Of a stretch of DNA of 48,422 nt, positions 19,476 through 30,113 are shown one piece after another; position 1 is the stretch's first letter; the number at the start of each line of letters is the position of its first letter. The DNA is from an uncultured Clostridia bacterium. Lineage in GTDB: Bacteria > Bacillota > Clostridia > Oscillospirales > Acutalibacteraceae. The translations under genes and the position numbers were made by a program. The stretch lies in NCBI GenBank assembly GCA_945863885.1, contig CAMAZY010000021.1, positions 1-48,422 of the forward strand, in the 5' to 3' direction. The notes under the pieces were generated by a model. That model did no database searches. It was not told the origin of the DNA and worked only from the letters and a program-made list of their open reading frames with translations.

Positions 19476-23575
<4,100 letters not shown>

Positions 23576-23586
<11 letters not shown>

Positions 23587-24283
23587 AGGTGAACACCTCC
23601 TTGAATACTTCCTCGACCGTTTTTCCCTTTTCACGAAGCTCGTCAACGTGAGAATCGACGATCACCTTGCCGTGACTTATCATCAGCACCCGGTCAAAGA
23701 TTTTTTCAACGTCATAAATCAAATGAGTCGACATTAAAATCGTGGAATCCTTGGCGTAGTTATCCATAATCAGGTCAAGAATCTTGCTTCTTGAAGCCGG
23801 GTCGACACCGCCGAACGGCTCGTCAAGAATATACAGCTTTGCGTTGCGGCTGATAATCAGAAGAAGATTGAGCTTTTCCTGCTGACCTTTTGACATGGTT
23901 TTGATGCGCTGCTTCGGGTCAAGCCCTAATTTTGCAACAAGCTCGTTCGCCTTGTTTTTGTCGAAATCCTTATAAAAATCGGCGTAATAGGCGATGGCGT
24001 CAACGGGACGCATCCAGTCGGGCAAAAACGTTTTTTCGGGAAGATAGGCAACGATGCTTTTGGTATAAACGCCCGGCTCCTCGTTGTCAATTTTCACCGT
24101 ACCGGTGTAGTCCTTGATAAGTCCGGTGAGGATTTTGATAAGCGTTGTCTTGCCGCAGCCGTTCGGTCCCAAAAGGCCGATGATCTGACCGGGATTGGCG
24201 GAAAAGCTGACATTGTTCAAGACCTGCTTACTGCCGTAGGATTTGCTCAGGGAGGAAATATTGATGATTTTTTCCATTTTCAT
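23576..24283 (-). CDS. ABC transporter ATP-binding protein
   Basis: 235 residues. Walker A GPNGCGKTT (39-47), signature MSKGQQEK, Walker B LYILDEPFGGVD and the H-loop STHL. YtrB/BcrA-like ATPase that energises the adjacent permease. An ATG two codons downstream (24277) is an alternative start; neither has a strong ribosome site. No GntR-type regulator precedes it, unlike many ytr operons. Confidence 0.92.
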
Positions 24284-24312: not shown

Positions 24313-27039
24313 TTATGATTTATGAAGCTTTTCAACAAGAAAGCAGATTGCCGCCGCCCAGATTGCCTGAAGCGCAATCGCCGTAAAGCAGCCGACAACG
24401 CTTGAAACTTTCAAAAGTGTGAAAACAATAAGAAGAACGAAGTTGATAAACGCCGCGGCAGCGCTGAAAATCGTCGCCGAGCGCTCGCCCGAATAAAGAC
24501 GCCACGCCGCATCCACCACGGCAAGCACGCTTTTGGACTTCAGGGCGCAGACAAGTCCGGTGTCCTGACGGATCGACTTGTTGTTCCGGTAATCCTTGAT
24601 AATCTGTGCGCCCTTGGTGCCGATCAGCTTAATGGCGGCTTCTTCGGTTCCGAGACGCTTTGCAATATACTTTTCACTAAGGCACGGGTCACAGCAGTTG
24701 ACCATTAAAACAAGGCCGGTTTTTGAAAACTGTCTGATGCTGTTTTTCGCTCGGGTAAGTACCGGATAGGTGACGATGAAGGTGGCGGCGATCATACCCT
24801 CAACAACAACGTACATGACGCTCTTGTTCTTGGAATAGCTGCGTTCCTCTTCTTCACTCGGCGCATCAATGCTGTGCTGAACGAGCATTTCACGGTTGCC
24901 GACAAGGACTCTTCTTCCGGCTATCCAGCACGCATAGCCGAGTTTTTCCTCATATTGGATATCCTCTGCCGCCGGAAGCCTGATGCCGGATTCCTTGATG
25001 AAATCATCAAACGCATCTTTAATCAGACAGTCGGTTTCCTTAAGCGTCGAGGCGGCGTAAACAACCGCGTCGGACAACGCCATGTGACCACCCGGTACAA
25101 GGCGGAATTTTGATATTTTCCCTTCGAAAATTTCGTCGGCATTTACGGTTACGGCGTTTGCAGAACCGACCTTTTCACTGTTTTCAAAGCTGAAAGCGGC
25201 GACACCGTTCACGCTTGCTTTGCTGTTGATGTCAGATCGGATGTATTCAAGAACGAGATCTCTCATAATCGGGAAGCACAGACAGATACAGCCGACAAGC
25301 CCTGTCGCAAAAGACTGAACGTTTTTGGTTACTATGCTTTGAACGAGACTGAACAGAAAGCCGGCGGCAAGAACCGCAACACAGCAATAGCTGTAAAACT
25401 TTTCGCTTTTTTTCGACGGAGCGAAAAGCTCTTCAAAATCTTTCGGAAGGTCAACATCCGCTCCGTAAATGATGGTCGGCTCGCCCTTGTCGTCGATCCC
25501 GTAGGCGAGGGCGGCTGCGTCCGCCGAATTCTCGACCTGCTGAAGTCCGTGAAGCGGGCCCGCTTTTGCCAACATACAGACGGTCTTGTTCATCGTTGTA
25601 AAGCGCATTCTGCGGCTTTCGCTGACCGCAAGAAAAGCGAACAGACTGCACGGAATATAGATCACGGTGCCGGTGAATTCCGTCATGCCGGTGATAAGGG
25701 CAGCAATCGAGTGAATCAGAACAAATACGGTCATAATCAGCACACAGGAGGCGCCGTTGAGCCGCAGCTGCCTGATGTTTTCGAAGGCGTCCGTAATGAT
25801 GTCACGGGAGAACACGGCGGCGGCAAGGAAGAGAACGAGGCTGACCGCCGTATAAATTCTTGCGCCCGAACCGTATAAGAATTCGAGTGCGCCGCCCGGC
25901 GTATAAGCCGAATAAAGAAGCGACAGCAAAAGCGAAACCGCCGTAAGAGCGAGCAGAATCTTTTCGTTCAATACGAGCTTTTTGATGTCAGCCTTGAGCG
26001 TTTTGCTAAGCTCCGAGGCACTTAACAGCTGTTGCTTCTTGACGTTTTTCCGTGCCTTTTGCGCTGAATTTTTGAAGACGTTTTCGCTGATTTTCAAAAA
26101 GGCGGATTTCTTTTTCTTTCCCGCTTTGTCAACGGCGTCGAAGATGTCCTCACCGTTTGATACGTCAACCGTGTCGGGTATGCTGTCAAGCGGCTTCCCG
26201 TTGTCGTTGCGCTCCAGAACAGGTTTGTCCGTCTCCGGTTTGGCAAGCACTCTGAAGTTGTCAATCAGATTCTTTCTTGTCGCCTTGAGGTCGGCTTCAA
26301 CCTTTTTTTCCGAAACCCGTTTCGGTTTTTGCTCGTCAACGTAGCCGTCAAGAATCAGCTGACCGTCGGGCTGTCCGTTGTTTTCTTCCGGCTCGGTTTT
26401 TTCGGCCGGATCGTGTACAACCGTTTTGTCTTCGACGGGCTTACCGTCTGAATTGTCCTTGCTGTCGGCTTTTTTGCCGAGTGAAAAATACTTGGTTTTT
26501 TCTTTTTCGTCCGAAGGGGCTTCTTCGGCTTCCTGCGGTGTCCGGCTGTCCTTTCCGGCGGTAACGTCTTCCACTATTTTTTCTCTGACCTTATGAAAAC
26601 TCTTTACCGCCTCTTCTTTTTCGGTGGCTTCATTATGCCCGATGGGCTTGATTCCGACCGATTCGAGAAGCGCGTTGATATCGTCAAGATTTTCGTCCGT
26701 ACCGGCGTCGGCGGTTTCTCTGGCGGGAACTTCTTCACCTTCCTGCTGTCCGGCGTCGATATCTTCTAACTCAAAAATGTCATATCCGTTATCGCTTTCG
26801 TCGGGTTCGGGTTCTTTTGCTTTCTTTTTATTTTTGGAAGAGCGTCTGAACCGTGAAAGAAGACTGCTTTTTTCCTCGAAAACATCGGTGCTTTCTTCTT
26901 CGTCCGAGAAGAAATCGTCCTCCTCGTGCCGCCCGGAGTCAACATCTTCACTTTCACTGTTTTCTCCGAACATTGCTTCTCTTTTTCTCATAAAGTCCTC
27001 GTCATAAAGGGACGAAGGATCGTTTCTTTTATCAGACAT
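24313..27039 (-). CDS. Degenerate P-type ATPase-like membrane protein with acidic N-terminal tail
   Basis: 908 residues; ATG with GGAGGTAAGG upstream. Residues 1-330 are acidic and low-complexity. From about 355 the layout follows heavy-metal P-type ATPases: paired membrane helices (about 360-380, 395-412, 430-450, 458-472), a small cytoplasmic domain, more helices (548-570, 576-592), the P/N domains and two final helices (858-900). The N domain is clear: GRRVLVGNREMLVQHSI (708-724), and LTRAKNSIRQF to YIAKRLG (761-797) aligns with the actuator-to-hinge region of CopA. Every catalytic motif is lost: CPC reads CFP, the DKTGT region reads VNADEIFEG, TGDN reads NCCD, and GDGxNDxP is absent. It should not pump ions. 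Co-directional with rlmB and the ABC exporter. Confidence 0.82.
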   Translation of the reverse strand: MSDKRNDPSSLYDEDFMRKREAMFGENSESEDVDSGRHEEDDFFSDEEESTDVFEEKSSLLSRFRRSSKNKKKAKEPEPDESDNGYDIFELEDIDAGQQEGEEVPARETADAGTDENLDDINALLESVGIKPIGHNEATEKEEAVKSFHKVREKIVEDVTAGKDSRTPQEAEEAPSDEKEKTKYFSLGKKADSKDNSDGKPVEDKTVVHDPAEKTEPEENNGQPDGQLILDGYVDEQKPKRVSEKKVEADLKATRKNLIDNFRVLAKPETDKPVLERNDNGKPLDSIPDTVDVSNGEDIFDAVDKAGKKKKSAFLKISENVFKNSAQKARKNVKKQQLLSASELSKTLKADIKKLVLNEKILLALTAVSLLLSLLYSAYTPGGALEFLYGSGARIYTAVSLVLFLAAAVFSRDIITDAFENIRQLRLNGASCVLIMTVFVLIHSIAALITGMTEFTGTVIYIPCSLFAFLAVSESRRMRFTTMNKTVCMLAKAGPLHGLQQVENSADAAALAYGIDDKGEPTIIYGADVDLPKDFEELFAPSKKSEKFYSYCCVAVLAAGFLFSLVQSIVTKNVQSFATGLVGCICLCFPIMRDLVLEYIRSDINSKASVNGVAAFSFENSEKVGSANAVTVNADEIFEGKISKFRLVPGGHMALSDAVVYAASTLKETDCLIKDAFDDFIKESGIRLPAAEDIQYEEKLGYACWIAGRRVLVGNREMLVQHSIDAPSEEEERSYSKNKSVMYVVVEGMIAATFIVTYPVLTRAKNSIRQFSKTGLVLMVNCCDPCLSEKYIAKRLGTEEAAIKLIGTKGAQIIKDYRNNKSIRQDTGLVCALKSKSVLAVVDAAWRLYSGERSATIFSAAAAFINFVLLIVFTLLKVSSVVGCFTAIALQAIWAAAICFLVEKLHKS

Positions 27040-27054
27040 AACCTTACCTCCGGA

Positions 27055-27810
27055 TTATTTGAGTCTTTGTCTCGCCACTTCATACATCAATATGCCCGCT
27101 GCGACAGAGGCGTTGAGCGAATTGATTTTTCCGTTCATCGGAAGCGAAACAATAAAGTCGCTTTTTTCTTTGATGAGTCTGCCGACTCCGTTTCCCTCCG
27201 AGCCGATTACAAGAGCGACCGGTCCTTTGAAGTCCGTTTCGCTCCAGAGCGTGCCGCCCATATCGGCGCTGTAAATCCATATGCCGTTCTTTTTCAGCTC
27301 GTCGATCGTACCCGCAAGGTTTCCGACTCTTGCGACGGGCATATATTCGACCGCTCCGGCGGACGCTTTTCCGACCGCCCACGTCAGAGAGGCGTTGCGG
27401 CGCTTCGGTATGATGATGCCGTGCGCGCCGGCGGCTTCGGCGGTACGGATAATCGCACCGAGATTGTGCGGGTCCTCGATTTCATCGCAGATGATAAGAA
27501 ACGGATCCTCGTTTTTATCCCTTGCGCTTTGTAAAATATCGTCAACGCTTGCATATTCGTGTGCGGCGACGTAGGCGGCAACACCCTGATGGTTGCCCTT
27601 TCCGCACATGAAGTCAAGCTTCTTTTCGTCAACTTCTTTGATGACAATTCCCTTTTCTCTGCACTCGGAAAGAATCCGTCCGACCGAGCCGTTCCGTTCT
27701 CCTCTTGCGACAAGAAGCGTATCGATTCCTCTTTCGCTTTTGAGCGCTTCGAGAATGGCATTTCTGCCGATTATAAGATCGTTACCGTCACCGGCGGTAT
27801 TGTTTTTCAT
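27055..27810 (-). CDS. rlmB: 23S rRNA 2'-O-methyltransferase RlmB / TrmH family
   Basis: 251 residues. N-terminal substrate-binding domain starting IIGRNAILEALKS, then the SPOUT domain with the three family motifs: NLGAIIRTAEAAGA, VIGSEGNGVG and LNASVAAGILMYE. Methylates the ribose of a guanosine in 23S rRNA; closely related tRNA enzymes cannot be fully excluded. GGAGG precedes the ATG. A strong promoter lies about 80 bases upstream. Confidence 0.92.
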   Translation of the reverse strand: MKNNTAGDGNDLIIGRNAILEALKSERGIDTLLVARGERNGSVGRILSECREKGIVIKEVDEKKLDFMCGKGNHQGVAAYVAAHEYASVDDILQSARDKNEDPFLIICDEIEDPHNLGAIIRTAEAAGAHGIIIPKRRNASLTWAVGKASAGAVEYMPVARVGNLAGTIDELKKNGIWIYSADMGGTLWSETDFKGPVALVIGSEGNGVGRLIKEKSDFIVSLPMNGKINSLNASVAAGILMYEVARQRLK

Positions 27811-27887: not shown

Positions 27888-27916
27888 ATTATACCATAAA
27901 AAACATACCCTGTCAT
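27888..27916 (-). promoter_or_regulatory. Promoter of rlmB
   Basis: On the reverse strand: ATGACA (27916-27911), 17-bp spacer, TATAAT (27893-27888) with TGG just before the -10. It lies in the gap between the chrA-like terminator and rlmB. Confidence 0.75.
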
Positions 27917-28001: not shown

Positions 28002-28583
28002 TCAACCCATTTGGAAAATAATCCCCACGACGGCCGCCGCAACAATGCAGGCAATCGGATGAAGCTTTTTAAAGCACATGACCGCCACAAAGACAATCGC
28101 ACAGAGGATAACGCTTTTCAGATCAAAGCCGAGGAAGAAGTTTCCCGTTTCGGCGAACACTTCTCCGTTGAACAGCGCAATTTTCGCAACGCTGTAACAG
28201 GCGGCGGCAATCAGACCGACCGAAGCGGCACGAAGCCCGTAAAAAGCGTAGTTGACATATTTGGATTCCCTGAATTTCATCAGCACCCGGGAGATGATGA
28301 TGATAATCACAATCGACGGGGCGATAAGTCCGATCGGCCCTAAAATCGAGCCCGGAACGCCGGCTACGGTATAACCGACGTAGGTCGCCATGTTGATGCC
28401 CATCGGTCCCGGCGTCGATTCGGAAATCGCAACCATGTTCGAAATGTCGGCGGCATTAAACCAGCCGGTGGTTTCCCCCATCGAGGTCAGAAACGGGAGC
28501 GTGGCAAGTCCTCCGCCGATTGAAAACAGCCCGACAAGGAAAAACCGTCCGAACAGTTCCAGCAAAAGCAAGGCGTAGCTCAT
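28002..28583 (-). CDS. chrA: Chromate transporter family protein, second half of pair
   Basis: 193 residues with about six hydrophobic segments. The N-terminal GRFFLVGLFSIGGGLATLPFL and later GPMGINMATYVGY are the CHR-domain signature. A short single-domain CHR protein; two such proteins encoded together form the working transporter in many Firmicutes. Whether the substrate is chromate or another oxyanion is unknown. Overlaps the preceding gene by 4 bases. Confidence 0.88.
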   Translation of the reverse strand: MSYALLLLELFGRFFLVGLFSIGGGLATLPFLTSMGETTGWFNAADISNMVAISESTPGPMGINMATYVGYTVAGVPGSILGPIGLIAPSIVIIIIISRVLMKFRESKYVNYAFYGLRAASVGLIAAACYSVAKIALFNGEVFAETGNFFLGFDLKSVILCAIVFVAVMCFKKLHPIACIVAAAVVGIIFQMG

Positions 28584-29116
28584 GACTTTTTCCCTCCCTT
28601 AAGCAAAATTCCGATCACACCGGCAATCAGCACAAAAACAACGGGAGAAACGTTGGTCACCGTCGCCAAAACCGCAACCGCAATAAAAATCAGCGCCGTC
28701 GGAATATCAATGACGGATTTTTTCATCAGCTTGATGACCGAACTTAAAATCAGGGCGACGACCGCCGCACGGATTCCGCCGAAGGCCCATTGGACGGCAG
28801 GCAGATCCTGAAAATTCGAAACAAGGGCGGCGATTATTGTAATGATAACGACGGACGGAAACGCCATGCCGAGCGTGGCGACGATTCCGCCGATTGTCCC
28901 TTTTTGCTTGTAACCGACAAAGGTCGCCGTATTGATGGCGATAATGCCGGGTGTGCACTGACCGATGGCGTAATAATCCATCAGCTCCTCCTGAGTTGCC
29001 CAATTCTTCTTTTCGACAATTTCTTTTTGCAGCATCGGAAGCATCGCAATTCCTCCGCCGAAAGTGAAGCCGCCGATTTTTGCAAATGTTAAAAACAGTT
29101 CCAAAAGCTGCTTCAA
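28580..29116 (-). CDS. chrA: Chromate transporter family protein, first half of pair
   Basis: 178 residues with a TTG start at 29116 and GAGGTT upstream. The CHR signature is FTFGGGIAMLPMLQKE and CTPGIIAINTATFVGYK. Integral membrane protein, about six segments. Pairs with the overlapping downstream gene as a split transporter. Confidence 0.88.
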   Translation of the reverse strand: MKQLLELFLTFAKIGGFTFGGGIAMLPMLQKEIVEKKNWATQEELMDYYAIGQCTPGIIAINTATFVGYKQKGTIGGIVATLGMAFPSVVIITIIAALVSNFQDLPAVQWAFGGIRAAVVALILSSVIKLMKKSVIDIPTALIFIAVAVLATVTNVSPVVFVLIAGVIGILLKGGKKS

Positions 29117-29179: not shown

Positions 29180-30046
29180 TTACTGCCCAAGGCCCTGAGC
29201 CATCATTCTGTCCATAAAGCCCTTTTTCTTTTCTTTTTTCGGTTTGTACGCCGGGGGATCTTCCATCTTTTTGCGGGCTTTCTGACCGCTTCTTGAAGCA
29301 AGATAGCGGTTGACCTCGATTACCGGCGGTGCCATGGTTTCACTCATATAGTCAACGCACTGCGCAAGCAGGATCTGATCGTTGTTCAGCTCGCCGAGAA
29401 TCGTTACGGCAATCAACGACTGCGTCTCGTTTGTACCGTCCTCATAAATCTCGTTGAGCACCTGGAAAAGCTTTTTCATGGTGGCGGGTCTGTTTTCTTT
29501 GATGGCGGCGATGACTGTCGGCGTGCCGTAGTTTACGAAAAAGTCCTCCGCTAAAAATTCGCCGTATTGGGCAAGACTATCCTTGTAGTGGTAACGAAGC
29601 TCGGGAAAGACGATGCAAAGACGGCTGGCAAGCGTGTTCGGGTCGTAGAATGAACCGTGCTTGACGGCGTTTTTCGAAACGGTCTGCGGGGTGCTCTTGG
29701 CCTTGCCCTGCTTCTTCGTAATATCTTTTTTTCCAAAATTCGTCGTAAGTGTTTCGTTGAACTCGCCGATAACATACTTTATGTCCTTTTCCTGCGCATC
29801 GGGGGAAAGCAAAGAGGCCACAAGGCGCTTCTGCTTGCTTTCGTCTTCGTCGGCTTCTTCGGAAAACAAAAGAGTGAAAATATCGTTCTCGTATTTCAAA
29901 GTGAGGATGGATTCATCTTTTGTATATTTTAATAAGCAGGCATCACCTTTTTCTTCTACGGAATTTTCGCTTTGCAATCCGTATTTTTGGGTCGTTTCAT
30001 TGATTCCGTCTGCAACCTTTTTAAACAGATCGACATTAACGCTCAT
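29180..30046 (-). CDS. Conserved protein of unknown function
   Basis: 288 residues from the ATG at 30046, with AAGGAGAT upstream. N-terminal half is an alpha/beta domain rich in charged residues; a Lys/Gln linker (about 115-135) leads to a helical half starting FYDPNTLASRLCIVFPELRYHYKD. The end is strongly basic (KPKKEKKKGFMDRMMAQ). No signal peptide or membrane segment. No enzyme motif recognised. Divergent from the secreted Fn3 gene, each with its own promoter. Confidence 0.72.
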   Translation of the reverse strand: MSVNVDLFKKVADGINETTQKYGLQSENSVEEKGDACLLKYTKDESILTLKYENDIFTLLFSEEADEDESKQKRLVASLLSPDAQEKDIKYVIGEFNETLTTNFGKKDITKKQGKAKSTPQTVSKNAVKHGSFYDPNTLASRLCIVFPELRYHYKDSLAQYGEFLAEDFFVNYGTPTVIAAIKENRPATMKKLFQVLNEIYEDGTNETQSLIAVTILGELNNDQILLAQCVDYMSETMAPPVIEVNRYLASRSGQKARKKMEDPPAYKPKKEKKKGFMDRMMAQGLGQ

Positions 30047-30084
30047 AGATTTATCTCCTTCAGTCTGTGAATATATACTTTGCA

Positions 30085-30113
30085 ATTATAACACAGTTAA
30101 ACAGAAAAGTCAC
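30085..30113 (-). promoter_or_regulatory. Promoter of the 288-aa gene
   Basis: On the reverse strand TATAAT (30090-30085) lies 39 bases before the ATG; GTGACT stands 17 bases upstream as a weak -35. Confidence 0.6.

Follow-up and report, generated by a model that had tools for sequence, protein, structure and literature searches.

The locus and its gene neighbourhood

The window analysed here comprises 48,422 nt of contig CAMAZY010000021.1 (GCA_945863885.1) from an uncultured Clostridia bacterium of the Acutalibacteraceae. A gene on the minus strand (24313..27039) runs as a single open frame of 908 amino acids, and homology found by phmmer and profile searches points to a pseudoenzyme derived from P1B-type ATPases. 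Residues 1-346 (26002..27039, minus strand) form an acidic N-terminal tail with 25.1% D/E, 17.1% K/R and a net charge of -28, which, judging from composition and hydropathy, has no hydrophobic segment and is probably cytosolic and disordered. The initial annotation correctly noted an acidic tail but gave it 330 residues; it is N-terminal and 346 aa long.

The remainder of the protein (residues 347-908; 24316..26001, minus strand) is a putative membrane core with P1B topology, as suggested by profile alignment and hydropathy. Eight TM-like segments were identified by hydropathy (residues 355-373, 392-410, 425-443, 455-473, 552-570, 574-592, 857-875, and 878-896), and these stand in the P1B order with the A and P/N loops in P1B places, including a large loop at about residues 601-855 at the place of the P and N domains. 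A ninth hydropathy hit (residues 744-762) lies inside the soluble head. The same crude scan gave 6 to 9 segments in 101 of the 103 family members described below.

The constant neighbour of the gene is rlmB (23S rRNA Gm2251 methyltransferase; 27055..27810, minus strand), located 15 nt upstream. Across the family, rlmB is upstream on the same strand at 100 of 103 loci with a median gap of 21 nt; 99 of the gaps do not exceed 210 nt, and the single gap of 1109 nt belongs, by its gene map, to an interrupted member (L148). Among the three loci outside this count, two (L067 and L173) are at contig ends and one (L181) has rlmB adjoining beyond the gap limits. The strongest promoter-like site in a scan of the window precedes rlmB (27888..27916, minus strand) and matches the consensus at 11 of 12 positions; as a consensus match only, it is in line with rlmB and the pseudo-ATPase gene forming one transcript.

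On the other side, the gene adjoins an ABC ATPase (Pfam; 23576..24283, minus strand) followed by an ABC-2-like permease with a weak Pfam match under the cut-off (22765..23646, minus strand). A joint role with an ABC-2 exporter had been suggested from this gene order, and the suggestion did not hold across the family, in which neither neighbour is conserved. The clusters of these two ABC genes have 4 members each among 63 loci, which, by the gene maps, are the window, two genomes of its genus, and one further locus (L032). Even a looser ABC-ATPase cluster is represented on the same strand, at a distance of up to five genes, only 9 times among 103 loci. Further along the window, a DUF7674 protein (29180-30085, minus strand) adjoins two short chromate-transporter-like genes (28002-29116, minus strand), of which the one at 28580-29116 was tested.

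At 17 of 103 loci (e.g., L056:4281-6350), the first or second gene downstream on the same strand belongs to an EF-G-like cluster; the identity of this cluster as translational GTPase-like comes from one member tested by Pfam. Near the EF-G-like gene, a few loci also have a DUF4830 protein (Pfam) and a gene that by eye resembles a pseudouridine synthase. A SpoIIE-like gene, also named by eye, stands two genes away at 7 of 63 loci. A role in sporulation is not favoured because the presence of the gene is independent of SpoIVA: among 150 genomes, 116 have both, 10 have SpoIVA only, 22 have the pseudo-ATPase gene only, and 2 have neither. In this table, four genomes were scored as lacking SpoIVA by absence from the match table, a sub-cut-off match in G019 was counted as SpoIVA, and G090 was counted as lacking the pseudo-ATPase gene.

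Descent from P1B pumps and fate of the catalytic motifs

Common descent of the family with P1B (CopA-like) pumps is firm on the evidence of the following comparisons. The window protein by itself matches Legionella CopA (3rfu) with an E-value of 6.6e-9 over residues 606-819 (phmmer, PDB sequences), and matches the NCBIfam models TIGR01525 (1.9e-5) and CopA (7.3e-5), both far below the curated cut-offs. It has no Pfam match up to E 1, and at E 0.01 the Pfam domains E1-E2_ATPase and Hydrolase were each found in 2 of 62 members. At the same threshold, the CopA model matches 61 of 62 members (best 7.3e-21), the heavy-metal ATPase model 56, and the ZntA model 28 (best 2.2e-9). A family profile built from a 62-row alignment reaches 3rfu at 1.3e-35 (hmmsearch), and hhalign of that alignment against 20 motif-intact P1B pumps gave a probability of 99.85 and an E-value of 5.9e-31 over 471 columns. 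The initial annotation is borne out in its view that the protein is a membrane pseudoenzyme derived from P-type ATPases. The CopA/ZntA likeness had been placed at residues 540-908; the homology is confirmed, but it spans about residues 349-821, thus starting earlier, while the last two TM segments beyond residue 821 are predicted from hydropathy and position.

AlphaFold2 models of the core, made with a three-sequence alignment, and of the head alone have pLDDT values of 36.2 and 43.7, respectively, both below usable confidence. With the head model, Foldseek returned 383 matches with E-values up to 10, and the best 50 of the 383 were all P-type ATPases (best E 1.2e-6). Among the matches listed, the TM-scores by query were 0.18-0.33 with an rmsd mostly of about 15, and target TM-scores of 0.42-0.57 were reached by isolated N domains of HMA6, HMA8, and CopA. 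As the Foldseek score includes sequence too, this result may be taken as weak support for a P-type fold.

The fate of the catalytic motifs was followed in 103 members from 23 families of the window's order (Oscillospirales in GTDB), aligned with 29 motif-intact P-type ATPases, 27 of which are P1B pumps. Of these members, 63 are from the window's family (the window copy, two named relatives from an Oscillospiraceae bacterium and a Ruminococcus sp., and 60 further loci) and 40, collected by profile search, are from 22 other families. L031 is truncated at a contig end, and L148 is represented only by the C-terminal piece of its interrupted frame. In the same alignment, all 27 P1B pumps keep DKTGT, TGES, CPC, and GDGxND, with the pumps having been chosen by DKTGT.

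DKTGT is named as the signature motif in one review (PMC10654040). Orthologs that keep it would have spoken against a pseudoenzyme, and none of the 103 members has an intact DKTGT or a Lys at its second position. The equivalent in the window protein is NADEIF (residues 633-638; 25126..25143, minus strand, by alignment), with Asn at the phosphorylation site as in 6 of 103 rows including the window. Across the family, the first or the second position is acidic in 97 of 103 members, followed by D/E at the Gly position (89/103), L/I/V (102/103), and Phe (89/103). The Asp shifts between clades, being at the first position in 63 rows and at the second in 32, and both positions are acidic in 5 rows.

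The A-domain equivalent (residues 475-545; 25405..25617, minus strand, by alignment) is shortened and lacks TGES; its median length across the family is 70 residues (57-73) vs. 135 in the 27 motif-intact P1B pumps, and the column of the TGES Glu is a gap in 102 of 103 members and Cys in one. At the CPC site, the window protein reads FPI (residues 589-591; 25267..25275, minus strand, by alignment), having lost both Cys and kept the Pro. CPC is present in none of the 103 members, with the first Cys in 1 and the second in 3, and the Pro is retained in 90. GDGxND occurs in none of the 103 proteins, its alignment columns being empty (L031 ends before the site), and a metal-binding motif of the GMxCxxC type was likewise found in none. 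The His of the N-domain HP is present in one member. The motifs had been reported as all gone, TGDN included; this stands for CPC, DKTGT, and GDGxND, but not fully for TGDN, where the window protein has CCDP (residues 782-785; 24685..24696, minus strand, by alignment) and its Asp is kept (NCCD in the window). At that site, Asp is found in 97 of 103 members, Thr in 65, Gly in 1, and Asn in none.

Without DKTGT, GDGxND, and TGES, the known phosphorylation cycle cannot run, and the loss of pump function in the family is well supported by the aligned sequences. Compared with the P1B-1 copper ATPases (CopA, 3rfu), the family has homologous first six membrane segments and P and N domains and keeps the N-domain glycines, whereas it lacks DKTGT, CPC, TGES, GDGxND, and the GMxCxxC-type motif and has an A domain of half the length and a long acidic tail. 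The likeness to the ZntA/CadA-type P1B pumps is seen in the ZntA model matches given above, which are fewer and weaker than those to CopA; the same motifs are lost relative to these pumps.

The best-conserved part of the family is the N-domain equivalent (residues 661-765; 24745..25059, minus strand, by alignment), which has the highest mean majority fraction (0.454), followed by the P1 region (0.405) and the TM regions (0.274-0.339). Gly 701 and Gly 714 are present in 102 and all 103 members, respectively, and each in all 27 P1B pumps. Other conserved residues are specific to the family, namely Phe 677 (96/103), Phe 754 (86/103), and Tyr 758 (99/103), at which Ile, Ile, and Asp predominate in the P1B pumps.

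Distribution, selection and the acidic tail

When 71 members and 29 motif-intact pumps were placed in a quick maximum-likelihood tree, the family came out as a single clade with a support of 100; its place among the P1B pumps is unsure because the family stem is 1.61 changes per column long. By profile search, the gene is present in 138 of 150 genomes of the window's family (139 reported, with G090 left out because the strength and range of its match are probably those of a motif-intact pump). Across the order, 137 of 147 genomes clearly have the gene, although the search reports 142; the lower figure was used because G175, G181, G209, G214, and G276 match no better than 1.6e-27, like motif-intact pumps, and four of these, whose rows are not among the matches listed, may be fragments. 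Outside the order, no full-length relative was found by profile search in 143 genomes of the class sample (148 sampled) or in 147 genomes of the phylum sample, with cut-offs of 1e-15 and 1e-20, respectively, which could hide very distant relatives. The matches listed outside the order in these two samples lie within about profile columns 190-489, which are common to motif-intact pumps. About 12 of the 150 genomes of the window's family gave no acceptable match, so some of them can do without the gene. Genomes without the gene are often small, as 7 of the 12 are 1.0-1.4 Mb in size, one of the seven being only 69% complete. In one member (L148; G171:C38), the frame is interrupted by a stop codon.

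The core of the protein is under strong purifying selection. Against the nearest relative (L031), with which 617 of 740 aligned residues are identical, dN/dS is 0.048 for residues 347-742 (396 codons), 0.028 for residues 600-742, and 0.131 in the tail; the neighbouring rlmB of the same genome pair gave 0.033. These values rest on one pair and are approximate because dS is near 1. Selection had previously been argued from the full-length, intact frame, and the core values agree with that argument.

Tail length varies in the family from 0 to 1064 aa with a median of 320. Two members, L166 (548 aa) and L176 (544 aa), are nearly tailless, showing that the core can dispense with the tail; the zero tail length of L176 is real, whereas that of L148 reflects its broken frame. 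Short patterns recur among the 100 tails of 60 aa or more. A helix-like motif of the [FY]S[VL]DDILAE type, searched with a looser regular expression, is present in 39 tails (100 shuffles gave 0.14 on average and at most 2), and a second pattern of the WS..DID.LL type is present in 15 vs. 0.0, a contrast that overstates the evidence since both patterns were devised after reading the tails. The first motif is absent from 61 tails, and from the window tail as well; 3 of the 39 tails that have it carry it only more than 100 residues in. A relaxed form occurs within the first 90 aa of 55 of the 100 tails (2.53 in shuffles).

The motif may extend beyond the family. In a search of 147 genomes, it was found in the disordered tails of two other proteins, which we regard as a lead and not as a result. 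One is an ABC-2 permease (PF01061; L240:3427-4749, G253, with the same gene in L202), which stands among glycosyltransferase-like genes (by eye) and has a long N-terminal tail that opens with FSIDDILAE. The other is LspA (PF01252; L241:2404-3357, G243, with the same gene in L218), whose long C-terminal tail ends in YSLEDILAEFRDI, a motif of the same type. By established topology, the N-terminus of the permease and the C-terminus of LspA should both be cytosolic. A hit in L209 looks like a contig-end fragment of the pseudo-ATPase family, and the other hits, which encode folded protein regions or, in G179:C19, lack a reading frame of 100 aa, were discounted as chance. An N-terminal motif of the LYDEDF type in the window's genus gave five hits in three genomes, three in the pseudo-ATPase and two inside other proteins.

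Possible roles of the protein

The simplest reading of these sequences would be a membrane-anchored head that binds a ligand or a protein, together with a partner-recruiting tail. More specifically, the family may be a non-pumping membrane scaffold or ligand-gated sensor made from a CopA-like P1B pump by a single descent, a proposal to which we give about an even chance. The eight-helix membrane part would now serve as an anchor, and the P/N head would bind either a protein or a ligand, which could still be a nucleotide, but would not be phosphorylated. The long acidic tail, which often has a start of the [FY]S[VL]DDILAE type, would dock a cytosolic partner. The initial annotation had likewise proposed a sensor or scaffold, and we infer such a role here. 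The retention of the TGDN Asp and the CPC Pro in most members leaves room for a residual function of both sites.

Alternatively, the protein may still be a transporter, with the membrane part serving a new substrate as a channel or carrier that works passively or is driven by a partner and does not rely on P-type chemistry. The order of the TM-like segments in the window protein, the helix-breaking M4 Pro kept in 90 of 103 members, and the selection on the membrane-containing core are all consistent with this reading. However, the metal-binding cysteines of CPC are almost entirely lost, and the TM regions are less conserved than the P1 and N regions, and thus we consider continued transport rather unlikely. 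An elaboration of the sensor idea, in which the protein is the membrane hub of an envelope-organising system, is speculative and seems doubtful to us. The head would sense a ligand, and the tail motif, common to envelope proteins such as a surface-polysaccharide-type ABC-2 permease and the lipoprotein signal peptidase, would be recognised by one cytosolic partner.

The conserved gene order raises a further alternative, namely that the protein holds RlmB or ribosome-linked factors at the membrane or regulates them there. The near-constant, closely spaced rlmB upstream and the EF-G-like cluster gene downstream at 17 of 103 loci agree with such a partnership in translation. This evidence is gene order alone, however, and a gene may stay in one transcript with a housekeeping gene even if their products never meet; moreover, no RNA- or ribosome-linking domain was found in the window protein with Pfam or NCBIfam. 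A link to translation therefore has only a slim chance of being correct.

Less probable still is an enzyme with new chemistry, in which the rebuilt P-domain motif and the TGDN Asp would make a HAD-like phosphatase or phosphotransferase. The acidic residue in place of the D or K of DKTGT and the TGDN Asp (97 of 103 members each), together with the D/E at the Gly position (89/103), could furnish such a site. On the other hand, the Asp shifts by a single position from clade to clade (63 vs. 32 rows), unlike a nucleophile, the Lys is absent in all 103 members, and the HAD phosphatase signature is incomplete, as the acidic pattern at motif I (DxD) shifts and no member has GDGxND (HAD motif IV). Lastly, a decaying pump (a pseudogene in progress) or a chance resemblance, as might be read from the loss of all catalytic motifs, the scarcity of Pfam matches (none in the window protein; E1-E2_ATPase in 2 of 62 members at E 0.01), and the broken frame of L148, is hardly credible against dN/dS values of 0.028-0.048, order-wide retention, new conserved residues, and the profile-profile E-value of 5.9e-31.

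Among the matches listed in the open-access literature, no bacterial pseudo-P-type-ATPase family was found, which is not proof of absence, and human TMEM94 was the nearest published case. TMEM94/ERMA of animals has a P-type-like architecture, as does the pseudo-ATPase family, beside which it is set here by description only; it differs in being an animal protein with ten helices and a disputed function. One structural study reports neither ATP at the site proposed for phosphorylation nor a Post-Albers cycle and argues against P-type ATPase activity (PMC12134183); another presents TMEM94 as the ER Mg2+ ATPase (PMC13322241).

An order-wide, selected, and rlmB-linked family shows that the P1B fold can persist without pumping, and the family offers a natural control for non-transport roles of this fold. 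It also cautions that proteins of this kind should not be labelled copper exporters. The role of a dead pump thereby becomes a testable question in cultivable gut commensals.
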